A stretch of 35,997 nucleotides of DNA from Bacillota bacterium (lineage in GTDB: Bacteria > Bacillota > Dehalobacteriia > UBA4068 > UBA4997): positions 1-35,997 of the forward strand of contig JAETTP010000021.1 of assembly GCA_021769035.1 (NCBI GenBank). The letters run 5' to 3'. The notes under the pieces are model-generated. The model worked only from the letters and a program-made list of their open reading frames with translations. It ran no database searches and was not told the origin of the DNA. Positions 1-13,965 of the stretch are shown one piece after another. A program made the translations under genes and the position numbers. Every line of letters begins with the position of its first letter. Position 1 is the first letter of the stretch.

Positions 1-1
1 A

Positions 2-3000
2 GCTGAAGACAAAACGACCGAGATTGCAACAGCCACGAATGACGCTAATGGCAAAGTTCGCTTTGTTGTTGATAACGACAAGACTGAAAACAAGTATATC
101 GGTGATGAAAAAGGAAAAACTTATACATTTTATGTTCAAGAGGTTACTGGTAGTGATAATAATATTATTTATAACAGTGAACTTCATGAAGTACAAGTAA
201 AAGTTACTCTTAAAACGACAGAAATTAAGCTTGATGGGAACACAACAACAACAATAAAGAATTCTTTTGCGGAGCAGTTGCCTGATTATAAGAATGTGAC
301 TATCACCAACACATTGAAATCTGGCGACTTGAGCATTACCAAAAAATTGCAGACGGAATGGTGGCAGGATACTCCTGATGATTTAACGTTTAACTTTGAG
401 ATTAATATTCCGAAGTTGCCGAACGGTGACTACACTGTGGTTCGTACTGATAAAGCAGGAGCGGAAACAAGTTACAATGTTAATTTTGCAGAGGGCAAGG
501 CCACTGTTGTGTTGCATAGCGGTGAAACTATTCTTATTAAGGGTTTGCCGGCTGGCTTAACGTACAGTGTAATCGAGCAAGACACTGAGGGCTACAAACT
601 GGTAAACTCTGAAAATGCAGCAGGTACTATCACCGCAAATGTGACTAACGCAAACGGCGATACACTTACGGATAACACCGCTAAGGTTACTTTCACCAAC
701 AAGCGTGATTTGGTAAACCTGGCCGTAACCAAAAAGGTTGAGCTTGGCACGGACTCTGCCGAGGCTCCTGACGAAGAGTTCACTATCAAGGTGCAGATTG
801 GCGAAGTTACAGAGGATATAATGGGCGGTATTTTGGGTGATAATCACACAGATGGTGTTAAACCTAACAATGCCCTTTATGCTGGAGATGGTGTTTACAC
901 AATCACCTTAAAAGCAGGTGAAACCGCCACAATCCATGGTATTCCCAACAACACCAGCTATAAAGTTGTTGAGGAGTCTATTCCGAACGGTTTTACATTG
1001 ACAACTGATGCGGAAGATTTAAATGGTACACTGACGGAAGATAAAACAGTGACGCTTACAAACCATTACTTCAAAACTAAAACTATTGACATTCCCTTTG
1101 AGAAAACCTGGGCGGGTATCCCGGAGGATGGCAATGCGCTTTATCCCTCCTCCATTACGGTGCAACTTAACCGTGTTTGGATGGAGAATCGCAAGGTGTA
1201 TTTTGAAGCTGTTGGCGATCCTGTAACTATTACTAAAGGGGCCGATAACACCTACAGCTACATTTTTGAAGATCAGCCCTTGTGTAGGGCCGAGGGAGTG
1301 TCTTACAATAACTATTATGTAGCAGAAATCGACATTGAATACAACGCGGAAAGCGCCGCTGCTTTGGTTGCTTATCTGGATAAACAGGCGCAAACCTATG
1401 GCAAGCATTTTCACGATGTAGAAAATGTTGACAAGGCGAATAATACCTTTAAGATTTTGGGCACTTCCGAAACTACTGAGGGGCAACGGGAATTGCTGGG
1501 CGTCTTCACAGTCGATAGCGCAAACGCGAACGTAGACCCGTTTGACGCTGCTCCAAGCGCAAGCATGGTAAACACCTGGATTCCTGCCAGCGATACTGGC
1601 GAAAACTCCTTTAAGGTGGTTAAGCAAACAGCTGGTGAAAATCCGACAAAATTGCCAGGGGCAATCTTTAGGCTGACTGACGCGAACGGTTTAGTGCGTG
1701 AAGCTAAAACTGATGAAAACGGCGAGGCTGTTTTCCGTCTGCTGCCGGAGGGCACTTACACTTTGACTGAATACGAAGCTCCTTTGGGTTATCAAATTAA
1801 CCCGACTGAGTGGACGGTTGACGTGAAGAAAGAGCTTACTTCGGTTTCCGATGAAAGTGGCGCTTGGCTAAACACCTGGACATGGACAACAGACATTACT
1901 GGTGGTGAAGCTGGCGTGCTTACGGTTACTGACGAGCTTATCACTGGCAGAATCAGCATAACCAAAGCTTTGGCAATGGATACGCCTGAGCTTGCAGCAG
2001 CTTTTGCCAACCAGAATTTCGTCTTTAACATTTACGCAGGCGAAACCCCGGACGCGGAGGCTGAGCCGGTGGCAACCCTGACGGTGCAGCCGGGCCAAAC
2101 TGCAACCACCGAGGATCTGCCTTTTGGCGTTTACACTATCCGAGAGGCTAATCCGCCGCAGGAGCTGGGCAACAGCGCCTACAAGGGCGTGACCTTTGTT
2201 CTGGGCGAAACAACGGCTAACGGTTCCATTGTGGTTAATATCGCTGAACAACAAGCTGAACCTGTTGCGGTTACGGCAACCAACAATTACACCGGCTTCC
2301 CGTCCTATGCGCCGCAGGTAAATAAGGTTATCACGGGCGTAAACGTTCCGGCTACTGTTTTCAACTTCACTTTGGCAGCAGCCGATGGCAACAATGCGGC
2401 GGGCTACACAATGCCTGAGCAGCTGACGGCTACGGTGAACGGGGCGGGCACGGCCAGCTTCGGCAATATCCTGTTCAAGCAGGCTGGCACCTACAACTTT
2501 ACAATCACAGAGCAAAACGACGGTTACACAGGTTTTACCTATGATGAATCCGTTTGGACGCTTACTGTGACTGTGGCTGAAGAAAGCGGCAATTTGGCAG
2601 TTACCAATGCCAACTATACTAAAGAGGGTGTGGCAACCGCAAATGCTGCTCAATTCACCAACACTTATACCGAGCAGAGGCCTGCAAGCGTGAATATCAC
2701 GGTGCGTAAGGCCTGGGCGGGAGTTCCGGAGGGCCAAGCGCTGCCGGCTAATGCTCAAATGCAGTTAATGCGCAACGGCGAGGCTTTCGGCCCTGTGGTG
2801 GCGGTCAACGCCGCCGGCGGTTGGGCTTACACCTGGGATAACCTGGCTACTGCCGACGCCGAGGGCAATCCCTACACCTACACGGTGGCGGAAGTGAATG
2901 TGCCGGAGGGCTATCAATCGGTAGTTACCAGCGACGGTAACATTTTCACAGTCACCAACACCTATCAGGAGCCGGCAACCGGCAGCCTGACGATTAGTAA

Positions 3001-3649
3001 GGTTTTGGCGGGCAACGCCCTGACGGACGAAATCCGTGGCCGGGAGTTTACGGTTCAGCTGCTACTGTTTGCGGCTGACGGGCAAACTCCTTTGGCGGGA
3101 GCTTATCCGTACAGCGGCGCAACCAACGGCACGGTTGGCCACGAGGGCACAATCGTTTTGCGCGGCGGCCAAAGTGTAACTGTCACCGGTTTGCCGGAAA
3201 ATACGATTTACCGCGTGGTGGAAACCGATGCTAATGGCGCTAGTATGACTGAAACTTTCTATTCTGATTTAGGTTTGCCACACGTTATTAATGATGGCGA
3301 CGCGGACACGGTGGAGGTTCGTAATGTGTTTAACACCACCACGCCGGATAATCCTGGCGGTGGCGATGAAGGCGACAACACGCCTGAATTGCCCAACCCG
3401 AATGATCCTGGCACGCCGGATGAAATCACCATTTACGATGACGATGTGCCGCTTACTTATATGAAGGTGCAAGACCCGAACAACGAGGAGGAATTCGTTT
3501 ATCTGCCAGAGGACGAGGTTCCGCTAGCAGAAATGCCGGTTCCGAAAACGGGCGACACAAGCCGCACAGGTTGGCTGGCGTTGTTCACTTTGCTTTCGTT
3601 GACGGGTTTGGCAGTGCTGATTGCCAAAAAACCTAAGCAAGAGGCTTAA
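2..3649 (+). CDS. Large cell-wall-anchored surface protein with Cna-B/pilin-type Ig-like domains (5' partial)
   Basis: The frame is open from base 2 with no stop, so the true start lies left of the window; 1,215 residues are visible. The protein is a string of Ig-like modules of the kind found in Gram-positive pilins and adhesins. Several end in V-T-F-T-N or V-T-I-T-N-T signatures, as in FctA/Spy0128-type isopeptide domains, and one SpaA/Cna-B module has L-P-G-A-I-F-R-L followed by G-T-Y-T-L-T-E (coding about 1650-1800). The C-terminus has a sorting signal: a V-P-K-T-G-D motif (codons about 3539-3556, a variant of LPXTG), a hydrophobic segment and a K-K-P-K tail. It should therefore be linked to peptidoglycan by a sortase, none of which is in view. 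A terminator follows directly. It lies inside the presumed left element. Function as adhesin or pilus subunit is inferred from domains; the ligand is unknown. Confidence 0.88.
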   Translation, partial: AEDKTTEIATATNDANGKVRFVVDNDKTENKYIGDEKGKTYTFYVQEVTGSDNNIIYNSELHEVQVKVTLKTTEIKLDGNTTTTIKNSFAEQLPDYKNVTITNTLKSGDLSITKKLQTEWWQDTPDDLTFNFEINIPKLPNGDYTVVRTDKAGAETSYNVNFAEGKATVVLHSGETILIKGLPAGLTYSVIEQDTEGYKLVNSENAAGTITANVTNANGDTLTDNTAKVTFTNKRDLVNLAVTKKVELGTDSAEAPDEEFTIKVQIGEVTEDIMGGILGDNHTDGVKPNNALYAGDGVYTITLKAGETATIHGIPNNTSYKVVEESIPNGFTLTTDAEDLNGTLTEDKTVTLTNHYFKTKTIDIPFEKTWAGIPEDGNALYPSSITVQLNRVWMENRKVYFEAVGDPVTITKGADNTYSYIFEDQPLCRAEGVSYNNYYVAEIDIEYNAESAAALVAYLDKQAQTYGKHFHDVENVDKANNTFKILGTSETTEGQRELLGVFTVDSANANVDPFDAAPSASMVNTWIPASDTGENSFKVVKQTAGENPTKLPGAIFRLTDANGLVREAKTDENGEAVFRLLPEGTYTLTEYEAPLGYQINPTEWTVDVKKELTSVSDESGAWLNTWTWTTDITGGEAGVLTVTDELITGRISITKALAMDTPELAAAFANQNFVFNIYAGETPDAEAEPVATLTVQPGQTATTEDLPFGVYTIREANPPQELGNSAYKGVTFVLGETTANGSIVVNIAEQQAEPVAVTATNNYTGFPSYAPQVNKVITGVNVPATVFNFTLAAADGNNAAGYTMPEQLTATVNGAGTASFGNILFKQAGTYNFTITEQNDGYTGFTYDESVWTLTVTVAEESGNLAVTNANYTKEGVATANAAQFTNTYTEQRPASVNITVRKAWAGVPEGQALPANAQMQLMRNGEAFGPVVAVNAAGGWAYTWDNLATADAEGNPYTYTVAEVNVPEGYQSVVTSDGNIFTVTNTYQEPATGSLTISKVLAGNALTDEIRGREFTVQLLLFAADGQTPLAGAYPYSGATNGTVGHEGTIVLRGGQSVTVTGLPENTIYRVVETDANGASMTETFYSDLGLPHVINDGDADTVEVRNVFNTTTPDNPGGGDEGDNTPELPNPNDPGTPDEITIYDDDVPLTYMKVQDPNNEEEFVYLPEDEVPLAEMPVPKTGDTSRTGWLALFTLLSLTGLAVLIAKKPKQEA

Positions 3650-3681
3650 AACTTTTAGCCAATCTTGGCTGAAATAAACAA

Positions 3682-3715
3682 ACAGCTCCTGGGCATTTGC
3701 CTGGGAGCTGTTTTG
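3682..3715 (+). terminator. Rho-independent terminator after the surface protein gene
   Basis: A 13-bp stem (ACAGCTCCTGGGC with GCCTGGGAGCTGT, two G-T pairs) closes an ATTT loop and is followed by TTTT. It begins 33 bp after the stop codon. Confidence 0.85.
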
Positions 3716-3958
3716 CTAACTGAAAGGGATATTAAAGCGGCGCCTTTATTTGTTAATTTAGTGGTTTAGTAATGATAGACTTTCCTCCTTAAGGCGATAA
3801 ACAATATAGTAAGAATTTTCAATAAAGTTTTCTCTATATTATTTGATAACAAATTTTAATCCAATAATGAACCTTTAAAAACTTAATAATTTTTTTGAAT
3901 TATTATATAATTCAGGCCATATATTATACTGTTAATTTTTAATTAGGAGGCTGATTTT
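3716..3958. other. Gene-free A+T-rich stretch upstream of the recombinase cassette
   Basis: No open frame with a ribosome binding site is visible on either strand, and the missing 3' end of cotJC is not here. The one structure is a perfect palindrome-like repeat, GAATTAT-TAT-ATAATTC at 3897-3913, about 45 bp before the small gene that follows. It is placed like an operator, but its role is unknown. No clear promoter with good spacing was found. Confidence 0.5.
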
Positions 3959-4111
3959 ATGGCTGAAGAAAAAGTGAAATCTAAAAATGAATATTGTAAA
4001 AATATTTTTAGAGCAGGGGAGGATAAAATATCCAGAGATAATTTTACGCAGAAATGGATACAAATAATTAACTCACAGGAAAGAGATAAAACTTTAAGTG
4101 TAAATCAATAA
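3959..4111 (+). CDS. 50-residue protein preceding the serine recombinase
   Basis: ATG at 3959 follows a strong AGGAGG (3945-3950) with 8-bp spacing, and the frame runs 50 codons to TAA at 4109-4111. The protein is charged and hydrophilic, with a C-terminal half around N-F-T-Q-K-W-I-Q-I-I-N that suggests an amphipathic helix; there is one Cys and no membrane segment. It lies 101 bp upstream of the recombinase on the same strand, so the two may be co-transcribed. Small proteins in this position beside large serine recombinases can be regulators or recombination directionality factors; that role here is inference from position and size only. I do not recognise a named family. Confidence 0.7.
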   Translation: MAEEKVKSKNEYCKNIFRAGEDKISRDNFTQKWIQIINSQERDKTLSVNQ

Positions 4112-4119
4112 AAAATAGC

Positions 4120-4191
4120 CTGTTTTCATATTAAATAGATGTATAAATTTTATATCTGTGCTGTAATTACTATATGAAAACAGCTTGTTTT
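4120..4191 (+). promoter_or_regulatory. Alternative hairpins in the leader of recombinase 2
   Basis: CTGTTTTCATAT (4120-4131) is the exact complement of ATATGAAAACAG (4172-4183), 40 bp apart. The right arm overlaps a second short hairpin, AAAACA-GCT-TGTTTT (4177-4191), so the two structures exclude each other. The second one ends 6 bp before the AAGGAG of the recombinase. This could be an attenuator or a protein binding site; no function is shown. Confidence 0.4.
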
Positions 4192-4212
4192 ATCTCTAAG
4201 GAGAGATGAATT

Positions 4213-5766
4213 ATGAAAGTAGCTATTTACTGCCGTTTATCGGAGGAAGATAGGAACAAGCAATTTGCCACTGATGACAGCAACAGTATTCAAAATCAAA
4301 AATCTATGCTGTTGCAATATGCGTTGGAACAGGGGTGGGATATTTACAATATTTACAGTGATGACGATTACGCTGGGGCGGATAGAAAACGGCCGGAGTT
4401 TAACAAACTGCTGGTAGATGCTGAACAGCATAAATTTGATGTGGTGCTTTGCAAAACGCAATCTCGCTTTACCAGAGAGTTGGAACTGGTGGAAAAATAC
4501 ATTCACGGTTTGTTTCCAATTTGGGGCATACGTTTTGTGAGTGTTGTGGATAATGCCGATACGGCAAACAAAGGCAACAAAAAGTCACGTCAGATAAATG
4601 GTCTTGTTAATGAGTGGTATCTGGAGGATATGTCGGAAAATATTCGTAGCGTTTTGGATAACCGGCGGGCTAATGGTTTTCATATTGGATCATTCGCGCT
4701 TTATGGCTATAAAAAGGATCCGGAGCACAAAGGCCATTTGCTGATTGACGAGGAGGCTGCCGCTGTTGTGCGCGAGGTCTTTACGCTTTTTGCCCAAGGA
4801 TATGGTAAGAACGCTATTGCCAGAATGCTAAATGACCGTGGTGTACCAAACCCAACCGAATATAAACGTCTACACGGTTTGCGCTATCAGCAGCCCAAAA
4901 CGAAAAACAGCACTCTATGGAAATATTTTGCGATTGCCAATATGCTGCGCAATGAAATTTACATAGGCAATATGGTGCAGGGTAAATATGGCAGTGTTTC
5001 ATATAAAACGAAGCAAAACAAGCCAAAGCCCCAAAGCCAGTGGTTTGTGGTTGAGGGAACGCACGAGCCGATCATAAACCGGGAGCTTTGGGAAAGAGTG
5101 CAGTTTTTGCTGCAACAAAAAGCCAAGCCGTTTATTTTTGGGCAAATTGGTTTGTTTGCCCAAAAAACGCGTTGCGCTAACTGTGGCTATATTATGCGTT
5201 CTTCAAAATGCCAGGGCAAGTATTATCTGCAATGCCCAAACCGGCATGTCGCCAAAGAAGCTTGCGAGGGAGCTTTTATTTCGGTTGAAAGATTGGAGCG
5301 TATGGTTATTGATGAGCTCAATCGTCTGGCGGCTGAGTATCTTGATAAAGATGAGTTGGCTATGAAAATTGAGTTTTGTAATAACTTGCAAGAACAGAAA
5401 AAAACCTTGCTGGCGAATAAGGCCGTCTATGAAAAGAAAATTGCAGAATACGCCAAGGGCATGCAGGATCTTTATATGGATAAGGTAAAAGGCCTGATTG
5501 GTGAGGCTGATTTTGTCGCCTTGTCCAAAAATATTTCACAAGAGAAAGAACGCTTGCTGAAACTGGTTCAGGAGTTGCAAAGTAAGATTATTGCTATTGA
5601 TAATAAAATTACCGCCAGTGATAACCGGCGTGAGTTGATTGAGCAATATACTAATTTGGAGCATTTGGACAGAAATATTGTTGATACCCTGATTGATTAC
5701 ATAATTGTGGATAAGCGTATTCAAGGAACCCGTAACGTTCCGATTGAAATTCATTGGGCTTTTTAG
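4213..5766 (+). CDS. Large serine recombinase (recombinase 2), predicted to act at the second cotJC break
   Basis: 517 residues. The N-terminal resolvase domain (about 1-150) starts Y-C-R-L-S with Ser9 as the expected nucleophile; then comes a recombinase domain (about 160-275), a zinc-ribbon domain (about 320-365, C-A-N-C-G-Y then C-P-N-R and a further Cys) and a long charged coiled-coil region (about 375-470). This order is that of large serine integrases of the SpoIVCA/TndX type, which cut two sites and excise or integrate DNA. AAGGAG at 4199-4204 supports the ATG. The stop codon is about 90 bp from the point where the cotJC reading frame is lost (5857), the usual placement of an integrase next to its own attachment site. 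It points toward the other recombinase (6115-7665), with one cotJC segment between them. Which site it acts on is inferred from position. Confidence 0.93.
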   Translation: MKVAIYCRLSEEDRNKQFATDDSNSIQNQKSMLLQYALEQGWDIYNIYSDDDYAGADRKRPEFNKLLVDAEQHKFDVVLCKTQSRFTRELELVEKYIHGLFPIWGIRFVSVVDNADTANKGNKKSRQINGLVNEWYLEDMSENIRSVLDNRRANGFHIGSFALYGYKKDPEHKGHLLIDEEAAAVVREVFTLFAQGYGKNAIARMLNDRGVPNPTEYKRLHGLRYQQPKTKNSTLWKYFAIANMLRNEIYIGNMVQGKYGSVSYKTKQNKPKPQSQWFVVEGTHEPIINRELWERVQFLLQQKAKPFIFGQIGLFAQKTRCANCGYIMRSSKCQGKYYLQCPNRHVAKEACEGAFISVERLERMVIDELNRLAAEYLDKDELAMKIEFCNNLQEQKKTLLANKAVYEKKIAEYAKGMQDLYMDKVKGLIGEADFVALSKNISQEKERLLKLVQELQSKIIAIDNKITASDNRRELIEQYTNLEHLDRNIVDTLIDYIIVDKRIQGTRNVPIEIHWAF

Positions 5767-5841
5767 CTCAAAAAAATGACGACGCGCATATAAGCCCTCT
5801 GAGAGCTTAAAAAGTGCATTAGGGTATGGCACTATTTGTTC

Positions 5842-6069
5842 TTAGGCAATCGTACCTTCCGCTGCCATATCCTCATGCAAATCGGTGATAATATCTCCTT
5901 TAGATTGGAAATAGCTGGCGGTGAAAGGCATTCCCGCTGCTGAAGCAGGATAAATCCCTGTTGTGTGGTCGACAAAATAGCTGTCGAAGCCTTGTTCTTT
6001 GATTTCCTCAATGCTCAAATCCTTAGTCAGCTGGTATACGATAGCGCTAATCATTTCCAAATGCGCCAA
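5842..6069 (-). CDS. cotJC: cotJC middle segment (split spore-coat manganese catalase)
   Basis: This 75-codon frame encodes the centre of CotJC: A-H-L-E-M-I-S-A-I-V, then Y-F-V-D-H-T-T-G-I-Y-P and D-L-H-E-D-M-A-A-E. It has no ribosome binding site and no start except a TTG that is really an internal Leu codon, so it is not a gene by itself. The upstream part of cotJC ends at 9399 and continues here exactly in frame through the shared GAGTTGG. The segment contributes the His of the E-x-x-H manganese-ligand motif at its start and the next ligand Glu as its last true codon (5859-5857); G-T-I-A-stop after it is not cotJC. After removal of the 3,333-bp element alone, the fused frame would be 140 codons plus stop (199 + 224 = 423 nt), still lacking the C-terminal quarter with the last His ligand. 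Assignment rests on recognising the CotJC family sequence. Confidence 0.92.
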   Translation of the reverse strand: MAHLEMISAIVYQLTKDLSIEEIKEQGFDSYFVDHTTGIYPASAAGMPFTASYFQSKGDIITDLHEDMAAEGTIA

Positions 6070-6097
6070 CTCGTTGGTACACCAAAAATGGAAATGT
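6047..6097 (-). other. Left attachment junction of the 3,333-bp element
   Basis: The core CCAACTC (6066-6072; GAGTTGG on the minus strand) is shared with the other junction at 9399-9405. To its left is cotJC; to its right is the element arm GTTGGTACACCAAAAATGG (from 6073), which is mirrored by the arm at the far end. The stop codon of recombinase 1 is 43 bp away. Confidence 0.85.
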
Positions 6098-6114
6098 GGG
6101 AGGACGGGAAAAGA

Positions 6115-7665
6115 TTACCTTGGCAGCTTGGGATATATTGCCAGGGTTAGGTCGGTTGTCTGGCTCCAGCGCTGACTGATGGTTTTGCTGTAAACAACTT
6201 TGTCTAAAACACTTTTTAGCAATTCGTTTTTTGTTTCAGTAGTGGGTGCGTTGAAATAGCTTTCTAAAATAGTTTGCATTTCAGGGATTGTTGTATTGGG
6301 GGATTGTAAAAACTGTTGTTTGGCTGTTATTTTAGCTTCTAGTTCAACAGCCTGTTTTTCTAATTTATCCTGTTGGGCCGTCAGTTTGGCGGAGCGTTCT
6401 AAAAAGGTTGCAGGGCTGTATATATCTTTTTCCAGTAGTTCGTGGATACGTTGTTTTTGTTGTTTGCAGCTTGCCAACTCCTGCTGAATTCTTTTTAGTT
6501 GCATTTCCTCGCTGGTTTTGTCGAGAACTGTTTCAGCAAGCCAGTTGTCCGCAGGCTTATATTCCAGCAACCATTTACTAAGACATTGCAGCAGCACCTG
6601 TTCAATGTGTTCCAATTTATCGCCGACTATGGGGCAGCCTGGTGTGGTGCAAATCAGCATGTCAGGTCCTTTTTTGTTTGTACGTTTAAACATTTTTTTA
6701 CCGCAGTAAGCACAGGTTAACAAACCAACCAGCGGATTGCTCAAACCTTTGCTTTGTGGTCCTTTGGGGCTGCGGTTGCCAGTATGATTGCTGCTAAAAA
6801 GATTTTGGGTCAGATCAAATTGTTTCTGGCTGATGATGGGCTGGTGCAGGCCTTTGATCAGGGTGACGTCTTTCGCGGCGGCCCTGGGGCGGCTTTTGCT
6901 GATTTTGCCGTTGTTGGCGGTTTTGCTTTGGGCTCGGTTGCCCCAACGAATCCAGCCGGCATAAACCGGGTTTGTTAAGATACCGCGCACCACGCCGGGC
7001 TGCCAGGGCTTGCCTGATTGGGTTGGGTAGTTTAAATCGTTTAGGCGTTTGGCTATCTTGCTACAACCGAGCTGCTCCTTGGTGAACAAATTGTAAATAA
7101 GTTGAACGGTGGCGGCTTGTTCAGTCGGCTCCAACGTCCAGCCCTTTTGATTTTCTAGTTTCCGGCGTCGGTAGCCATAAGGCGGCTTGCTGCCAAGATA
7201 TTTACCCTCATTTACAGAAGCCAGCCGGCCCCGCTGTTGCCGCTGGTTAATCATCTTATATTCCCGCCGGCTCATAAACAGGCCAAACTCAAAGTATTCC
7301 TCATCAAATTCATTGGCAGGATTATATATTTTATCAGGAGTGATAATTTTGGTGTTGGAATACTTAAAAGCCTGCGCCACTATGCCCTGGTCAATGGTTT
7401 CCCCGCGGGCCAGGCGGGTGATTTCCATAACCAGAACGCCTTGCCACAGGCCGCGTTCAACCTCATTCAGCAGTTGTTGCATAACCGGCCGGCTGGCAAT
7501 GGTTTCTCCGCTGACCATTTCCTTGTATATGGCGGTGATCGTTAAATCCAGCCGCTCTGCCAGGGCAAGCAGGGCAGCCTCGTGTCGGCTTAAACTTTCA
7601 CCGGCGCCCTTGGACTCAGCTTCGGCATCGGCACGGGATTTCCTCAGATATAAGCAATAGGCCAT
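6115..7665 (-). CDS. Large serine recombinase (recombinase 1) of the cotJC-interrupting element
   Basis: 516 residues, of the SpoIVCA-like large serine recombinase class. The N-terminus reads Y-C-L-Y-L-R-K-S with Ser10 as the expected catalytic serine, followed by the resolvase core (about 1-150, including E-I-T-R-L-A-R-G and F-M-S-R-R-E-Y), a recombinase domain (about 160-285, with K-P-P-Y-G-Y), a zinc ribbon (about 315-350, C-A-Y-C-G-K and C-T-T-P-G-C) and a coiled coil (about 385-450). GGAGAG precedes the ATG at 7665-7663. The 3' end is 43 bp from the shared core, so gene and site travel together. By analogy with sigK-skin recombinases it should act in the mother cell, needing a partner or special expression for excision; a sigma-E-like promoter candidate lies 38-65 bp upstream. 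Confidence 0.94.
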   Translation of the reverse strand: MAYCLYLRKSRADAEAESKGAGESLSRHEAALLALAERLDLTITAIYKEMVSGETIASRPVMQQLLNEVERGLWQGVLVMEITRLARGETIDQGIVAQAFKYSNTKIITPDKIYNPANEFDEEYFEFGLFMSRREYKMINQRQQRGRLASVNEGKYLGSKPPYGYRRRKLENQKGWTLEPTEQAATVQLIYNLFTKEQLGCSKIAKRLNDLNYPTQSGKPWQPGVVRGILTNPVYAGWIRWGNRAQSKTANNGKISKSRPRAAAKDVTLIKGLHQPIISQKQFDLTQNLFSSNHTGNRSPKGPQSKGLSNPLVGLLTCAYCGKKMFKRTNKKGPDMLICTTPGCPIVGDKLEHIEQVLLQCLSKWLLEYKPADNWLAETVLDKTSEEMQLKRIQQELASCKQQKQRIHELLEKDIYSPATFLERSAKLTAQQDKLEKQAVELEAKITAKQQFLQSPNTTIPEMQTILESYFNAPTTETKNELLKSVLDKVVYSKTISQRWSQTTDLTLAIYPKLPR

Positions 7666-7702
7666 TTGTGCATCTCTCCATTTAAGTAATAAAGGCTATA
7701 AA

Positions 7703-7730
7703 AGCGTATTCCTTTTTGTGAGTATTATTC
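7703..7730 (-). promoter_or_regulatory. Candidate sigma-E-like promoter of recombinase 1
   Basis: On the minus strand GAATAAT (7730-7724) and AATACGCT (7710-7703) are separated by 13 bp. They match the sigma-E consensus KMATATT and CATACAHT at 6 of 7 and 6 of 8 positions; the spacing is one base shorter than usual. The start codon follows after about 38 bp. The match is suggestive only, because the local sequence is A+T-rich. Confidence 0.35.
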
Positions 7731-7836
7731 TAATAGCTTTTGCTTTAGGGATTTCCGAGCGTTGTTTGCTGCACAAAATTAAAGGAAATGGGCCGAGCTG
7801 TGAAGCATAGATATTAAGGGAAAGGGGTTGATAACA

Positions 7837-8034
7837 ATGCTTTGCGGAGATTGCAACGATAGGGGGTTGGCAGAAAAGGAGCATATTGTGGCAGATTACT
7901 CTTTTCCTGACGGCAGCCGGGGCGTGATAATGGATGCGTCTTACATAAATAAAACGCCGGAGGAAATAAGAGAGGTGGAAAAAAACTATCAACGGGTGAT
8001 TTGGAACATTATGCTTGAAAAAAAAGTGAGATAA
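7837..8034 (+). CDS. 65-residue protein of unknown function inside the cotJC element
   Basis: ATG at 7837 lies 9 bp after AAAGGGG; a TTG at 7828 is also possible but is too close to that sequence. The product begins with two cysteines (C-G-D-C), has a Y-S-F-P-D-G-S-R-G-V-I-M beta-hairpin-like stretch and a P-E-E-I-R-E-V-E-K-N helix, and ends K-K-V-R. It is transcribed away from the recombinase gene, with 171 bp between the two start codons, and a strong terminator follows directly. I do not recognise the family. Its size, charge and place make it a candidate regulator of the recombinase, possibly a directionality factor, but nothing in the sequence proves that. Confidence 0.65.
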   Translation: MLCGDCNDRGLAEKEHIVADYSFPDGSRGVIMDASYINKTPEEIREVEKNYQRVIWNIMLEKKVR

Positions 8035-8037
8035 TTA

Positions 8038-8086
8038 AGCAGACGATAGCAGCTCCTGAAATAGAGCCGCTATCGCCTGCTTGTTT
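8038..8086 (+). terminator. Terminator after the 65-residue gene
   Basis: AGCAG-A-CGATAGC (8038-8050) pairs with GCTATCG-C-CTGCT (8069-8081) with one mismatch, followed by TGTTTT. It sits between this gene and the end of the convergent kinase gene and may serve both. Confidence 0.8.
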
Positions 8087-8137
8087 TATATGATTTAGCG
8101 TAATTGATATGGTATCCGAGGCCAACCGATTGCTATT

Positions 8138-8917
8138 TCACAATGGCAGATCTATACAAATGGAACAGCCTTTTCCTGGCTGACCGGTTACGCTAATTGA
8201 ACCACCGTGCATTTGGACAATAGCCTGACAAAAACACGTTCCCAGGCCACTTCCAGACGTTTTTGTGGTGTAGTAGGGGGAGAAGAAGTTGGCCTGTTGA
8301 TCTGCGTTAAGGCCAATTCCATTATCTTCAATCAAAAGATGGATTATTTTTTGCTTTTCATCAAATAAAGTGCTGATAACAATGCAACCATCTGTTTGCC
8401 CTTTGTCCTTTATAGACTCGCGACTGTTATCCAAGCAGTTAATTAGCATTTGCTGGAAATTTTGCTTGTCCAACAGGATTGGGGGAAGATTTTCAGCCAG
8501 ATTGCTTTTCAGTTGGATTTGGAATAGAGCAAGCTGGTTTTGTTGACTTTGAATCACTTCTGTTATTAGTTGATTAAGTGAACATAGACGCAGGATTGAG
8601 CTTTCCTGACTATTTTTTAGGTAATTATTTAGTAAATTAATATTATGTTTGATTTCCTGATAAACAGGTTGTATGGAGATTATTTCAATGTATTTGAGCT
8701 CACATTGTTTTTCCCAAACTTGCAGCAAACCACTAATGCTTTGCAGACAGTTTTTAACTGTGTGAAATTTAAGTGTGTTGTAAACTGCTGACCTTTTATG
8801 GTCCAGGAGCTGTTGCTGAACAAATTCATCATTTTCAAATTGTTCATTTTCATTCCGTTCATTTTCGTTTGCCAACCTATTGTTATTCAAAATTTGTTCA
8901 GTTTTGTTTTCTAACAT
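8138..8917 (-). CDS. Orphan cytosolic sensor histidine kinase
   Basis: 259 residues. GAGGAGGT stands 6 bp before the ATG at 8917-8915. There is no signal peptide or membrane segment. The first 50 residues are Asn/Glu-rich and probably helical; a dimerisation helix with F-H-T-V-K-N-C-L-Q-S-I (about residue 52) supplies the phospho-accepting His, and the C-terminal ATPase domain has an N box (N-C-L-D-N-S-R-E-S), G1 box (E-D-N-G-I-G-L), F box (F-F-S-P-Y-Y-T-T-K) and G2 box (G-S-G-L-G-T). It is a complete kinase without a recognisable sensor domain and with no response regulator next to it, as is typical of kinases feeding the Spo0 phosphorelay or Spo0A. The residue after the His is Thr rather than the more usual Glu/Asp, which may reduce phosphatase activity. 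A role in sporulation is inferred from its place in a coat-gene element. Confidence 0.88.
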   Translation of the reverse strand: MLENKTEQILNNNRLANENERNENEQFENDEFVQQQLLDHKRSAVYNTLKFHTVKNCLQSISGLLQVWEKQCELKYIEIISIQPVYQEIKHNINLLNNYLKNSQESSILRLCSLNQLITEVIQSQQNQLALFQIQLKSNLAENLPPILLDKQNFQQMLINCLDNSRESIKDKGQTDGCIVISTLFDEKQKIIHLLIEDNGIGLNADQQANFFSPYYTTKTSGSGLGTCFCQAIVQMHGGSISVTGQPGKGCSICIDLPL

Positions 8918-8932
8918 TGTTTTACCTCCTCA

Positions 8933-8970
8933 ATTATAATAGCCGACAAGAAGGAGGAGGTGCACGACAA
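8933..8970 (-). promoter_or_regulatory. Promoter region of the kinase gene with two 0A-box-like sequences
   Basis: On the minus strand a TATAAT (8938-8933) lies 15 bp before the start codon, too close for a normal long leader but usable. No good -35 is seen 17 bp upstream. Instead TTGTCG occurs twice (8949-8944 and 8970-8965), exactly 21 bp apart, resembling the core of Spo0A boxes (TTTGTCRAA) but without the terminal AA. This could mean Spo0A control of the kinase; it is a weak match. Confidence 0.3.
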
Positions 8971-9050
8971 AATTTCTTTTTTTCTAACAAGATGTACAAC
9001 CTTATTTTTTTCTAAAATATCTTTTTATCAATGTGCCCATTTTGGCAATC

Positions 9051-9284
9051 TTAAGACGGCTCTGGTTCGATGGTAATCAGGCTTTCAATAGAATAGCCGG
9101 ATTCGATGCTTATATTGTAAGCTAGGGATACGGAAATGTTTTTATTCTTAGTTTTAAGATTGCGTAAATATCTGTCTGTGATACCAATTTCTTCTGCAAA
9201 CGCCTCCTGTGTCAAGCCGGATTCTTCGATTATCTCGGCAAATTTTTTGTGATTTAACAAAACATTTTTAGTTTTCTTTTTCAT
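9051..9284 (-). CDS. Small XRE-type helix-turn-helix regulator
   Basis: 77 residues from the ATG at 9284-9282, chosen over the TTG three codons upstream because AAAGGA lies at proper distance from the ATG. The protein is one HTH domain: K-F-A-E-I-I-E-E-S-G-L-T-Q-E-A-F-A precedes the turn and I-T-D-R-Y-L-R-N-L-K is the recognition helix. Single-domain XRE proteins are usually phage- or element-type repressors. It is the first gene after the right attachment site and has its own sigma-A-like promoter there, so it may be expressed in vegetative cells and keep the element quiet. It is followed 134 bp later by the kinase gene on the same strand. Its target is unknown. Confidence 0.85.
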   Translation of the reverse strand: MKKKTKNVLLNHKKFAEIIEESGLTQEAFAEEIGITDRYLRNLKTKNKNISVSLAYNISIESGYSIESLITIEPEPS

Positions 9285-9343
9285 AGCGCTCAATCCTTTC
9301 TTATTTTAAATATAATAAAAGAAATTGAGAACTTTTTACAGGA

Positions 9344-9373
9344 ATTATACTTCCGATTTGCTAAAAATGTAAA
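9344..9373 (-). promoter_or_regulatory. Sigma-A-like promoter of the HTH gene
   Basis: On the minus strand TTTACA (9373-9368) and TATAAT (9349-9344) are 18 bp apart, inside the element and 26 bp from the core, so element DNA rather than the host supplies this promoter. Confidence 0.6.
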
Positions 9374-9379
9374 ATTTTT

Positions 9380-9430
9380 CACTTCTAGTTTTGTTGTACC
9401 AACTCTTCTGTGCCAATATCGGTTAGCAGA
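9380..9430 (-). other. Right attachment junction of the 3,333-bp element
   Basis: The core CCAACTC (9399-9405) is the second copy of the 7 bp seen at 6066-6072. cotJC lies on its right. The element arm on the minus strand, GTTGGTACAACAAAACTAG (from 9403), matches the arm at the other end at 20 of 24 positions. Confidence 0.85.
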
Positions 9431-9597
9431 CCAGCCACATCGCGATAGGGAGCGCTGTAACGTTGGGAAAGATAGCGCAATGATGCTCCTAATTCGCCGT
9501 CAGGGCCGCCGTATTGGCTAATTATAACTTTGGCCGCTCTGGCGTTGGGATTTTTGATGTTGATAGGATATTGTAATTTTCTGTCATAATTCCACAT
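9385..9597 (-). CDS. cotJC: cotJC 5' segment (split spore-coat manganese catalase)
   Basis: The start M-W-N-Y-D-R-K-L-Q-Y-P-I-N at 9597 follows AAAGGAGG and lies 4 bp after the cotJB stop. The sequence matches the CotJC N-terminus through S-Q-Y-G-G-P-D-G-E-L (first ligand Glu), L-R-Y-L-S-Q-R-Y and D-I-G-T-E-E-L. After that it runs into element DNA and stops within four codons (V-Q-Q-N). The true coding part is 9597-9399, 66 codons plus one base. Intact CotJC proteins are about 190 residues and belong to the di-manganese catalase family, placed in the inner spore coat. The break separates Glu and His of the E-x-x-H ligand motif. The rest continues at 6065 in frame. The N-terminal piece alone cannot form the metal site. 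Confidence 0.94.
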   Translation of the reverse strand: MWNYDRKLQYPINIKNPNARAAKVIISQYGGPDGELGASLRYLSQRYSAPYRDVAGLLTDIGTEELVQQN

Positions 9598-9601
9598 TTG
9601 C

Positions 9602-9853
9602 TTATGCCTCCTTTTCCCAGGGCCAAGGCTCATTAATCCAGGTCCAGCCGTCTTCTGTATTGACGCTGTAAACGGTCAGCGGGCCAAATTTGTTTTCATA
9701 TTCGTCAGTTAAAGCAGTTAGCAGGTTGTTGTAATACTTAAAATACTCCAGGGCAGACTCGCAGGTGGGGTGGGTATCCAAAAAAAGCTGTGTATCCTTT
9801 ACCACAAAAGCGATAATTTGAATGTCCAGCAAAAGCTGTTTTTGGTCGGTCAT
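9602..9853 (-). CDS. cotJB: Spore coat protein CotJB
   Basis: 83 residues with the CotJB pattern: an I-Q-x-x-x-F stretch, L-F-L-D-T-H-P, A-L-E-Y-F-K-Y-Y, F-G-P-L-T and the C-terminal W-x-W-I-x-x-P-W-P-W-E. The ATG at 9853 overlaps the cotJA stop by 4 bp (ATGA), and GGAGG lies in the cotJA end. In the cotJ operon CotJA, CotJB and CotJC are made together in the mother cell, and CotJA and CotJC depend on each other for coat assembly. Here cotJA and cotJB are intact although cotJC is split. Confidence 0.95.
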   Translation of the reverse strand: MTDQKQLLLDIQIIAFVVKDTQLFLDTHPTCESALEYFKYYNNLLTALTDEYENKFGPLTVYSVNTEDGWTWINEPWPWEKEA

Positions 9854-10174: not shown

Positions 10175-10205
10175 AAGCTGATTGACAAGCAGCGGAGGTG
10201 GCAAA

Positions 10206-11708
10206 ATGGCCTTAAAAAAGCCAGAGCGTATCTTTTTTGGCAGTGATTTAAACAAAAATATAGCCTTAATTGAAAGGTATGTAGGCGAATATGCGGATTT
10301 ACTGATACGTCGGCTGGAGGTGGCCGGGCAAACGATTGCCGCTTTGATCTATTTTGACGGTATGACAGATAAGACGGCCGTCAGCGAGTTTGTGGTTAAG
10401 CCGCTGCTGCAAAGGCCGGAGCAGTTGGTGGGCAAAACGCCGGAACAAATTGCCGCTGCCTGCCTGTATATCGCCGATTGGCAAACAGCCGATAACGACC
10501 AGGACTTTATGAACAGCATTTTTGCCGGTGACTGCGGCATTTTGTTTGCCGGTTCGCCCTGTGCGCTGATTAGCGATTTGAAAGGCTTTGAACGGCGCGG
10601 TATCAGCGAGCCACAAACGGAGATTGTGGTGCGCGGTTCCCGTGAGGGCTTCATTGAAAATCTGAAGACCAATATGTCAATGCTGCGGCGGCGGATTAAA
10701 ACGCCCAATTTGTGTTTTGAAAATTTGCAGCTGGGCACGGAAACCAACACCAGCATTTGTTTAACCTATATTCGAGGTTTGGCGGATCCGCAGCTGGTGC
10801 AGCGGGTGAAAGACCGCCTGAACAGTATTGAAATTGATGGGGTGCTGGAAAGCGGCTACCTGGAACAGCTGATTGAAGACGAGCCGTTTTCGCCTTTTCC
10901 CACAGTTGCCAACAGTGAAAAGCCGGACAAAGTGGTGGCCAAACTGTTGGAAGGGCGCGTGGGGATTATGGTTGATGGCACGCCCTTTGTGCTGACGGTG
11001 CCCACCTTGTTTGTGGAAAGCTTTCAGAGTGCGGAGGATTATTACTCTCGGCCATATATGGCTAGTATGGTGCGTTTTTTGCGTTTTTTTGCATTTATTT
11101 TTGCCGTTTACGGACCGGCCCTGTATATTGCTATCACTGGTTTTCATATTGAGCTGATACCGGCCAACTTAATGCTGAATATGTGGCAGGCTGCTGGCAG
11201 CACGCCGCTTTCAGCCGGCTGGTCGGTTTTCTTTTACGCCCTGGTTTATGAAGTGGTGCGAGAGGGCGGAATCCGTTTGCCGCGGCCGGTAGGCGCGGCC
11301 ATCAGCATTGTGGGCGGTTTGGTGATTGGCGATATGGCCGTGCAGGCCGGCTTAATTTCTGCTCCGGTGGTGATAATCGTGGCCTTTACAGCGATTGCGA
11401 TGTTTGTGGTAGACGCGCTGACCGACGCGGCCACAATTTTACGTTTTGCTTTTATTTTGCTGAGTTGGTGGCTAGGTTTTTGGGGGCTATTGCTGGGCAC
11501 TTTGCTGTTGTTGCTGCATTTAGTTTCGCTGGAATCATTTGGGGTGGCTTATTTTGCTCCCTTTGCGCCCTTGTTGCCTTATCAGCTGCGGGATACGGTG
11601 GTGCGCTTTCCTCTTTGGCTGTTGGGGCGACGGCCGGGCAATATTACGGTGGGCAGTAAATGGCGGCAGCGACAGGCTGTGCCGCCCAACCAGGTTAAGG
11701 AGGATTAA
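10206..11708 (+). CDS. Spore germination protein, GerA/GerKA family (receptor A subunit)
   Basis: 500 residues from ATG 10206, which sits behind GCGGAGGTGG; the TTG at 10182 lies upstream of that site and is rejected. The hydrophilic N-terminal half (about 1-275) contains the domain seen in GerA proteins, ending P-F-S-P-F-P-T-V and the motif S-A-E-D-Y-Y-S-R-P; the C-terminal half has about five hydrophobic segments and ends in a short charged tail. In spores the A subunit forms a receptor with B and C subunits in the inner membrane that senses nutrients. The C-subunit ATG directly follows the stop, so the genes are translationally linked. The germinant cannot be told from sequence. Confidence 0.95.
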   Translation: MALKKPERIFFGSDLNKNIALIERYVGEYADLLIRRLEVAGQTIAALIYFDGMTDKTAVSEFVVKPLLQRPEQLVGKTPEQIAAACLYIADWQTADNDQDFMNSIFAGDCGILFAGSPCALISDLKGFERRGISEPQTEIVVRGSREGFIENLKTNMSMLRRRIKTPNLCFENLQLGTETNTSICLTYIRGLADPQLVQRVKDRLNSIEIDGVLESGYLEQLIEDEPFSPFPTVANSEKPDKVVAKLLEGRVGIMVDGTPFVLTVPTLFVESFQSAEDYYSRPYMASMVRFLRFFAFIFAVYGPALYIAITGFHIELIPANLMLNMWQAAGSTPLSAGWSVFFYALVYEVVREGGIRLPRPVGAAISIVGGLVIGDMAVQAGLISAPVVIIVAFTAIAMFVVDALTDAATILRFAFILLSWWLGFWGLLLGTLLLLLHLVSLESFGVAYFAPFAPLLPYQLRDTVVRFPLWLLGRRPGNITVGSKWRQRQAVPPNQVKED

Positions 11709-12800
11709 ATGCGCATAAATTGGGCAAAAATGGTCGGTGTTGCCGGTTTGCTAGGGCTGATTGTGTTAGCGGCCGGTTGCAGCGGTATCGACGCGCTGGA
11801 CAGCGGGGATTTGAAGGATGTGGAGTTGGTTACAGCTTTGGCGGTTGATAAATCGGAGGACGAAAGTCAACTGATAGCAACGGTGCAACTGTTAAACCGG
11901 GATAAGGCTCTGGATAGGCAATACGCTGAAAGCTATTATAATCTGGCCGCAGCGGGCGTTAATTTGCCGGCGGCTGTTGGCGAGCTCTATCGTTTTGGCG
12001 CCAGGCAGCTGAACTTTTCGCATGCTTCCATATTGCTGCTGAGCGAGCAAAGCGCGGATTGCCAGCATTGGCTGGATTATGCTTTGCGTTCGCCGGAGCT
12101 TCGGCCGACTATTTATCCAGTTATTTGCCGAGCGAACGCTGGTGAGCTGTTGGCGGCAGAGGTTGAGAAGATAAGCCAGACGTATCTTCTCAATAATATT
12201 CTGGAGCCTTTGGGCAGCGGCCGGCCCGGTGCGGCGGCTATCAGCTTGCAAAGTTTTGTGGAGGATTTGCTCCAGCCTGGGATTGACCCTGTTTTGCCTT
12301 TGGTGGAACAGAGCCGGCAAGGCGTGGAGCTGGCTGGCTTGCTGGTGTTTAATGAGGCCGGCCAAGCGGTGGCGGCTTTGCCGGAGGAGGCTTGCTGGGG
12401 TTATATTTGGCTGACTAGGCCGCAGCATTTACGCGGTTACACGTTGGAGTTGCCACAGGCGGCGGTAGTTCAGGTAGAAAATGCTATTGTTAAGGCGGAA
12501 ACTACAGCTTTGGCGGACGGTTGCGCGTATGTGCAGTTTCAGCTGAAATTACGGGTGCGGCTTTTGAATAATCCGGCTGCGCTTTCTGAAAAGGAATTGC
12601 AAAAGCTAACGGAGGATCGTTTGCAGCAGTTGTTAGAAGCCGCTTTAAGCGAAAGCCGCCACTGGCGATTGGATTTTCTGGGCTTGGGGCGGGAAGTGTA
12701 TCGACATCAACCGCAGCTTTGGCAGGCTTGGCAGGAACAGGCCTATTTGGATAAGCTGACAGTCAGCTTGAGCGCGGAAACAGAAATTTTGCAATCTTGA
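11709..12800 (+). CDS. Spore germination lipoprotein, Ger(x)C family (receptor C subunit)
   Basis: 363 residues. The N-terminus is a lipoprotein signal: a positively charged start, a hydrophobic run and the lipobox V-L-A-A-G-C with Cys24. Downstream D-L-K-D-V-E-L-V-T-A-L-A-V-D-K marks the N-terminal domain of Ger(x)C proteins, followed by the three-domain length usual for the family. AAGGAGG at the end of the A-subunit gene (11697-11703) provides the ribosome binding site. The mature protein should be lipid-anchored on the outer face of the spore inner membrane and, with the A and B subunits, form the receptor. Family members vary strongly in sequence, so this call rests on the signal, the N-terminal motif and the operon. 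Confidence 0.93.
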   Translation: MRINWAKMVGVAGLLGLIVLAAGCSGIDALDSGDLKDVELVTALAVDKSEDESQLIATVQLLNRDKALDRQYAESYYNLAAAGVNLPAAVGELYRFGARQLNFSHASILLLSEQSADCQHWLDYALRSPELRPTIYPVICRANAGELLAAEVEKISQTYLLNNILEPLGSGRPGAAAISLQSFVEDLLQPGIDPVLPLVEQSRQGVELAGLLVFNEAGQAVAALPEEACWGYIWLTRPQHLRGYTLELPQAAVVQVENAIVKAETTALADGCAYVQFQLKLRVRLLNNPAALSEKELQKLTEDRLQQLLEAALSESRHWRLDFLGLGREVYRHQPQLWQAWQEQAYLDKLTVSLSAETEILQS

Positions 12801-12834
12801 TTAAAATGCCAGACAGTGAAACAGGGGGTGCAGA

Positions 12835-13965
12835 ATGCAGGGAAAAATTGGCCGGGCCGAGTTCTTTTCTCTGGCTTTGGTTTTGTGTTTAAGCAGCGTT
12901 CTGCTGCTTGGGGCGGTGGAAAAGGCGGCCGGGCCGCTGGCCTGGCTGTTTTTGACGGCGGCTTTGCCGGCCGGTTTGCTTTGCTGGTTGCTTTTTTACT
13001 TTTGGCTGAAGCTTTATGCCGGGCAAAGCTTTGGTGCGGCTTTGGAATATGCTTTTGGCCGGGCCGGCGGACGAATGGTTTTGTTTGCCTATGCTTTGTT
13101 TTGGCTGTTGCTGGTGGAGTTGTTTGGCGGCTGTGTGGCCGCCTTTTGGAGTTCTCTTGGCGCCAACAACCTGCCGCTTTGGTTTTACACAGCGCTTTTT
13201 TTGCTGGTGGTTGCCTGCTTTGCGGCCACCGGTGGCACGGCGTTGGCACGCGTGGCTTTGCTGGTGGTGGTGCCGGCCCTGCTTTTAACTTTGGTCAATT
13301 TGTGGTTGACGGTTTGGAATGCTGATTTTGGTAATTTGCTGCCTTGGCAACCTTTGCGTTCTGCTGAAAGTCAGGCTGCGCTTGGGCAAGGCTGGCGCTA
13401 TGGTTTGCTGGTGTTCGGCGGTTTTTCCGCTTTGCTGCCTATTTTACAGCACACACGAGAGGTTAAGAGGCGGATGAGCACTTTGGCAGTGGCCTTGGTG
13501 GCGGCGTTTTTGCTGTGGCTGGTTTTGGCGTTGGGCAGCCAGGTGGTTTTGGGAGCTTCCTTGCCGCTTTATGAATTTCCGATATTGCAGGTGTTTTGTT
13601 TGGCTGAGTTTGGCCATTGGTTCAGTCGTTTTGAGGTTATCGGGGCTGTGCTGCTGGTGATGTTGGCGCTGCTTAGGGCTGCCGCACTGTTTGGGGCGGC
13701 GGTTGCCAGTTTGTTGGAGCTCTGGGCGGTGGGGCCGCAACAGCGCGGCCGCATTTGGCTGATTTCCTTGGGCTGCTGGCTACTGTTAATGGTTGTGTAC
13801 TGGGCCGGTCAGTTTTATGCGCCACCAGGGGAGTTGCTTTTGGCAATCTGCGGCTGGTTGACGGCTTGTTTTGCCTTATTGTTGCCGGCATTGGCGGTGA
13901 TTTTGGGCGCGCTTAAATTTAAAAAGGAGCACAAAAACATTATCGTAAAGCACGCGCAGGATTAG
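12835..13965 (+). CDS. Spore germination permease, GerAB/GerKB family (receptor B subunit)
   Basis: 376 residues, almost entirely hydrophobic, with about ten predicted membrane helices. It begins G-R-A-E-F-F-S-L and carries the typical Y-E-F-P-I-L-Q motif in the second half; GerAB-type proteins belong to the amino acid/polyamine/organocation permease superfamily and bind the germinant. The gene is 34 bp after the C subunit, with GGGGGTG before the ATG. The order A-C-B instead of the B. subtilis A-B-C is common in clostridia. No terminator is obvious in the 9 bp before the convergent gene at 13975. Confidence 0.93.
   Translation: MQGKIGRAEFFSLALVLCLSSVLLLGAVEKAAGPLAWLFLTAALPAGLLCWLLFYFWLKLYAGQSFGAALEYAFGRAGGRMVLFAYALFWLLLVELFGGCVAAFWSSLGANNLPLWFYTALFLLVVACFAATGGTALARVALLVVVPALLLTLVNLWLTVWNADFGNLLPWQPLRSAESQAALGQGWRYGLLVFGGFSALLPILQHTREVKRRMSTLAVALVAAFLLWLVLALGSQVVLGASLPLYEFPILQVFCLAEFGHWFSRFEVIGAVLLVMLALLRAAALFGAAVASLLELWAVGPQQRGRIWLISLGCWLLLMVVYWAGQFYAPPGELLLAICGWLTACFALLLPALAVILGALKFKKEHKNIIVKHAQD

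Follow-up and report, generated by a model that had tools for sequence, protein, structure and literature searches.

How can a bacterium make a spore-coat protein whose gene is broken up by other DNA? The question is raised by cotJC, the gene for a manganese catalase of the inner spore coat, on a 35,997-nt stretch of the genome of a gut bacterium of the Bacillota (GenBank assembly GCA_021769035.1, contig JAETTP010000021.1). This stretch, the window, is the whole of contig C16 of the draft source genome, G000 (2.23 Mb, 117 contigs). A sequence-only reading of it had described a 3,333-bp element that interrupts cotJC and can be removed with exact restoration of the frame; its coordinates and the joined frame were confirmed, the minus-strand join reading ...GTEELAHLEM. 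However, when the whole genome was searched for the family, three cotJC fragments came up, one more than had been noticed. Judged from its sequence, cotJC of the source genome is a gene in three pieces, separated by two distinct recombinase elements, each of which could be precisely removed. The pieces, the elements and their attachment (att) sites lie as follows in the window:

9404–9597, minus strand: cotJC piece 1, codons 1–64 and the GA of codon 65 (PF05067 match; rejoined protein)
6071–9403, minus strand: element 1, at site B, 3,333 bp including one copy of the core GA (empty site in G001, intact orthologs, attP dyad of 20/24)
9381–9430, minus strand: attL of element 1, core GA at 9404–9405
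6046–6096, minus strand: attR of element 1, core GA at 6071–6072
5858–6070, minus strand: cotJC piece 2, the remainder of codon 65 through the GA of codon 136 (family match; rejoined protein; junction comparison)
1–5857, plus strand: window portion of element 2, at site D, continued on C99 between position 54505 and the end of that contig
5834–5883, minus strand: attL of element 2, core GA at 5858–5859

The fragments match positions 1–67 and 64–151 of the family profile in the window and positions 147–197 on C99 (54363–54515). From the ATG at 9597 on the minus strand, collinearity with the family holds to 9404 and picks up again at 6070. Past ...DLHEDMAAE the window frame runs into the DNA of element 2 and reads GTIA up to a stop at 5842, which had been taken for the end of cotJC but belongs to the element; the final 65 codons sit on C99, from 54504 downwards on the minus strand. 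Because cotJC is interrupted again at 5858, removal of element 1 alone, proposed earlier as restoring the gene, does not rebuild it, and two excisions are needed. Joined together, piece 1, piece 2 and the C99 piece give a 200-residue CotJC that is collinear with intact orthologs and shares 92% identity with that of G007 and 85–87% with those of G005 and G003, all of the same genus. Apart from these pieces, the family search found no manganese catalase match in the whole of G000. The suggestion that related genomes be searched for an uninterrupted cotJC proved fruitful: the gene is intact in G003, G005 and G007, with sites B and D empty, and in G001, also of this genus, site B is empty and site D occupied. 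The empty site in G001, a close relative, is precise, and the earlier reading of a skin-like serine-recombinase element in a coat gene is well supported, although that reading had overlooked the second interruption. With the match to the same-genus orthologs, the empty site in G001 and the 20/24 dyad around GA, the split is far beyond chance.

Both elements show the features by which large-serine-recombinase integration is recognised, namely a 2-bp core (GA), a dyad attP formed from the element ends and a clade-specific attB. The ends of element 1 join to TTTTGGTGTACCAAC-GA-GTTGGTACAACAAAA, a dyad that matches at 20 of 24 positions, and the joined ends of element 2 match at 17 of 24. The heptamer GAGTTGG, previously noted as shared by the two junctions of element 1, is indeed present at both, but we rejected it as the core, since only GA is common across elements and the remainder is a match within the element arms. 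The cores are invariant among the elements with both ends on hand (GA in 13 elements of the B1 clade of site B, GA in five at site D and GG in eight at site A). The two arms of one element resemble each other more than they resemble arms of other elements, with scores of 15.8 versus 11.2 for B1 (0 of 20,000 permutations), 17.2 versus 14.0 for D (p 0.015) and 17.0 versus 11.6 for A (p 5e-5); letter-shuffled arms score only about 6–7, far below arms of the same element. This test left out three B1 elements (L110, L150 and L165) with a shift in the printed boundary or a deviating layout. In the site-D element of G150 both arms are altered together, GTTGCACTT pairing with AAGTGCAAC where other elements have TTGTTCTT with AAGAACAA, which by its pattern is a compensating change.

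In an alignment to the manganese catalase 1JKU, the GA of codons 65 and 136 fall in the codons of Glu66 and Glu148, metal ligands of that enzyme, and site A lies at Gly31, four residues ahead of the ligand Glu35. As the GA cores belong to metal-ligand codons, the cotJC recombinases hit the codons least open to change, and we infer that the invariance of the metal ligands is the reason for the choice of site.

Each element carries one large serine recombinase (LSR), with the complete domain set and an N-terminal YxRxS catalytic motif:

6115–7665, minus strand: LSR1, site-B1 clade (Resolvase, Recombinase and zinc-ribbon domains; clade of 55 site-B rows)
4213–5766, plus strand: LSR2, site-D clade (domains; tree; ortholog of 91% identity at the same site in G001)

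Within the genus, cotJC is also split at site A in G006, at site B in G008 and at both in G004. Beyond it, 53 of 73 loci of the LSR1 family in public genomes (those with at least 250 nt past the recombinase) adjoin a cotJC piece broken at residue ~65; the hosts include Alkaliphilus, Tissierella, Clostridium, Papillibacter, Lachnotalea, Blautia and Paenibacillus. The gene is evidently split at recurring sites in dozens of Clostridia and in one Paenibacillus. When 75 recombinases found at cotJC sites were placed in a tree, those of site A formed one clade, those of site D one clade and those of site B two; the site labels need only two changes on the tree, the lowest number possible, a value as low as this being reached in 0 of 200 shuffles. 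Bootstrap support is not fully settled, the site-A clade reaching only 77%. The recombinase clade, as far as the tree goes, is predictive of the insertion site in cotJC.

G000 shares its three-piece, two-element arrangement with G151, G152, G153, G160, G164 and G171, and four pieces with three elements occur in G150 and G155. The complete chromosome of Blautia parvula NBRC 113351 (NZ_CP084061, G149) holds cotJC in five pieces with four elements, at C1 94583–87545, 67138 and 6233570–6210334, over a span of ~130 kb. Two adjacent elements with recombinases of different clades occupy site B there, with a micro-exon, GGTACTGAGGA, between them near 67138, of ~7–11 nt (7 nt if the shared GGTA is assigned to the neighbouring piece). 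Rejoined, the pieces give an uninterrupted 210-aa protein; those of G150 and G155 likewise rejoin to full open reading frames (ORFs), and wherever this was tested in multi-element genomes all pieces rejoin in frame. We consider it fairly likely that in the Clostridia cotJC is a multi-split gene, divided by up to four unrelated serine-recombinase elements into DNA-level exons (~7–11 nt at the minimum), with the cuts in invariant metal-ligand codons or beside them; that every element has to be excised in the mother cell for the metalloenzyme to be made; and that whole recombinase families are specialised on this gene. Two contigs classed as viral (G156 and G157, behind L242 and L217) hold internal cotJC pieces between two elements. 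In G138 (C2:792876–820939), a row of cotJC fragments that cover overlapping parts of the gene lies near an intact copy and may represent duplicated remnants or another type of rearrangement.

The pieces do not look like those of a dead gene. Between G000 and G001, 52–76% of synonymous but only ~4% of nonsynonymous sites differ in the cotJC pieces (pN/pS ~0.07), compared with 52% and 4% in the site-D recombinases and 87% and 10% in cotJB, the partner gene of cotJC. The simplest reading of these values is that element 2 has been in cotJC since before the two species parted, with purifying selection on the protein throughout; a later horizontal replacement is a possible alternative. Coexisting forms may also have left their mark in two metagenome assemblies. 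Contig C5 of G008 ends at core D, ...GCAGCAGA, and has an exact 141-nt overlap with C13, which crosses the empty site (end of L078, start of L079); contig C81 of G049 starts at the site-B core and has an exact 62-nt overlap with C60, which has the empty site (end of L092, start of L093). Overlaps of this kind at att cores are the trace expected of a fork in the assembly graph between two forms present in one sample, and either excision or a mixture of strains may have given rise to them. A site-D recombinase ortholog was not found in the G008 bin, although its contig stops at core D.

Sporulation of the host and control of excision bring in two further features of the window:

10182–13965, plus strand: GerA-type germinant receptor operon, which marks the host as a spore former
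3959–4111, plus strand: SM2, a small ORF of 50 aa directly upstream of LSR2, candidate directionality factor

With spo0A and an uninterrupted sigK elsewhere in G000, in addition to the GerA-type operon, the host appears to be a spore former. Large serine recombinases integrate DNA on their own and excise it only with a directionality factor. An ORF of ~50 aa corresponding to SM2 is kept upstream of the recombinase in six of six site-D elements examined, from different bacterial families, and SM2 may be the directionality factor of element 2. In Clostridioides difficile, the directionality factor of skin is a small protein confined to the mother cell (PMC5025042).

We propose the following hypothetical sequence of events, in which (i) the large serine recombinase of each element would target one invariant site in cotJC, so that dividing cells would carry the gene split by two independent integrative elements; (ii) once the cell sporulates, each recombinase, probably assisted by a small directionality factor, would recombine its own attL with its own attR in the mother cell, the chromosome of which is not passed on; (iii) each excision would release a circle and close cotJC again within a metal-ligand glutamate codon, at its GA; and (iv) full CotJC would require both excisions. 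We regard programmed excision of both elements in the sporulating mother cell, rebuilding cotJC, as the probable explanation of the locus. The split, the att cores, the paired attP dyads, the empty sites, the match of clade to site and the purifying selection are established at the level of sequence. The timing of excision in sporulation, and its place in the mother cell, are suggested by analogy with skin, SPbeta in spsM, and gin.

Several observations weigh against this explanation. A scan for sigma-E promoters gave results mostly no better than shuffles and was not significant for most genes; no directionality-factor candidate stands out among the genes of element 1; the linkage of C99 to C16 is itself presumed; an exact search of viral contigs for the circle junction of element 1 gave no match; and the LSR1 clade also holds ordinary phages, which require no host programme. 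The presence of LSR1 relatives in phages and viral contigs would suit a different account, in which ordinary integrative elements or prophages land in a very conserved gene and inactivate it without any programmed excision, the spores managing without CotJC or relying on a paralog such as the intact one found in some hosts, for instance Blautia parvula. We consider this account unlikely, given that G000 has no further manganese catalase match, that selection on the pieces is strongly purifying even though element 2 seems to predate the divergence of G000 and G001, and that genes with two to four elements keep every piece open and in frame, where decay would be expected after the first inactivation.

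Excision might also be real but stochastic, turning cotJC on or off in some growing cells in the manner of phase variation and unlinked to sporulation. The assembly forks, in which empty and occupied forms occur within the same samples, would fit such switching, as would the yin element of yabG, whose excised circles are present at all time points (PMC10747680). However, the forks may also be strain mixtures, every target met here is a sporulation gene, and the best studied relatives confine excision to the mother cell (PMC5025042), which together make stochastic switching improbable. That the pieces were wrongly combined in assembly or binning might be suspected in a 117-contig draft with piece 3 on a separate contig, but dozens of genomes, and the complete chromosome of Blautia parvula, show this arrangement again, and misassembly cannot yield invariant cores and paired dyads; we give an artefact hardly any credence.

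Programmed excision would place cotJC among the known sporulation cases, which comprise skin (sigK), SPbeta (spsM), spoVFB, spoVR, gin (gerE) and yin (yabG). Skin, with SpoIVCA in Bacillus subtilis and CD1231 plus the directionality factor CD1234 in C. difficile, is likewise a serine-recombinase element in a sporulation gene that is precisely rejoined in frame, and it has a small directionality factor; it differs in its target, sigK, which is intact here, and in having one element per gene, where cotJC has two and up to four in relatives. SPbeta/spsM, spoVFB, spoVR, gin and yin are also serine-recombinase interruptions of sporulation genes, but with other targets and recombinases and a single element per gene; gin is, like element 1, without phage genes, although it measures 28.6 kb compared with 3.3 kb. 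The cyanobacterial heterocyst elements (nifD, nifH, hupL, fdxN/XisF) share with those of cotJC the terminal cell, multiple elements per gene and recombinase clades that follow the site (PMC4874684), several elements being present in 10 of 87 interrupted genes, with a maximum of four in Rivularia nifD (PMC4874684). They differ in phylum, cell type and genes, the cotJC elements having large-serine-recombinase dyad attP sites at metal-ligand codons. The attR of prophage phi027 in C. difficile R20291 flanks the CotJC homolog CDR20291_1465 (PMC11222575), which that paper calls an adjacent bacterial gene, with no split or restored cotJC. In the literature searched, which took in few subscription papers, we found neither a split cotJC, this neighbour of phi027 being the nearest case, nor several elements in one sporulation gene, and we claim no priority.

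If the proposal is true, cotJC would apparently be a bacterial gene assembled from DNA pieces before use, and the endospore mother cell would stand beside the heterocyst as a terminal cell type whose genes gather excisable elements. In some annotations cotJC appears truncated or absent, which the split explains. The elements form a set of natural recombinase/att pairs together with a candidate family of directionality factors, and the type strains with split cotJC would be systems for the study of multi-step excision. Cultured, non-pathogenic strains that carry a split cotJC include Lachnotalea glycerini DSM 28816, Papillibacter cinnamivorans DSM 12816, Clostridium viride DSM 6836, Clostridium methylpentosum DSM 5476 and Blautia parvula NBRC 113351. 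The sites suggest a landing rule, namely codons fixed by binding the catalytic metal.

The remaining features bearing on the locus concern the cargo of the elements and the flank of cotJC:

9602–9853, minus strand: cotJB, partner gene upstream of cotJC (PF12652)
9051–9284, minus strand: XRE-type regulator of element 1 (HTH_3; 65% identity to a homolog in element 2)
8138–8917, minus strand: histidine kinase without sensor domain, cargo (HATPase_c)
7828–8034, plus strand: SM1, a small ORF of 68 aa with homologs scattered across other elements
2–3649, plus strand: cargo gene of element 2 for a long surface protein (SpaA, FctA and Cna_B domains), represented by its 3' part and running off the start of the contig

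Element 2 measures at least 14.3 kb, made up of ~8.4 kb on C99 and 5.9 kb on C16, plus the gap between the contigs. The minus-strand orientation of the cotJC piece on C99 means that the end of this contig points towards the start of C16; the 5' part of the surface protein probably sits at the end of C99, and both contigs seem to break within this one long, repetitive gene (window 1–3649, L004 17122–19905). The sequenced part of element 2 encodes an XRE regulator, a hemerythrin/response-regulator protein, a chemotaxis receptor, the SpaA/FctA/Cna_B protein, the 50-aa ORF and LSR2, and phage structural or packaging genes were not seen in it. They are equally absent from element 1, which contains only the XRE regulator, the kinase, SM1 and LSR1. 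SM1 was considered as a possible directionality factor of element 1; its homologs are scattered among elements with different recombinases.

On the minus strand cotJB is followed by cotJC and then by element 1, whose genes, except SM1, run in the direction of cotJC, so that transcripts of the cotJ operon might extend into them. A hairpin lies 3' of the kinase gene (found by eye in the sequence), and in other site-B elements the recombinase is convergent to cotJC; because of both, read-through is no general rule. The kinase shows partial similarity to the sporulation kinase KinD and to AtoS, in both cases below the cut-offs. The kinase-bearing element had been thought new, but dozens of Clostridia have an element at site B, with many unrelated cargos of which the kinase is one. 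Since compact site-B elements (3.2–7 kb) carry unrelated genes, in other cases resembling FeoAB, AgrB or an amidase (named by eye from translations), the kinase is best viewed as cargo. The XRE regulator was considered as a controller specific to cotJC, a role weakened by its membership of a multi-copy family in the genus, which also means that it travels with other elements. Relatives of the two copies in G000 (window 9051–9284 and C99:54739–54963) occur on several contigs of G007, G001 and G006, with seven matches in G007 and, in G006, a homolog close to the site-A element. In G012 and G017, site-B elements that belong to the B2 clade carry collagen-like proteins (L080 3616–6221 and L082 2524–4895; named by eye), which resemble spore-surface proteins.

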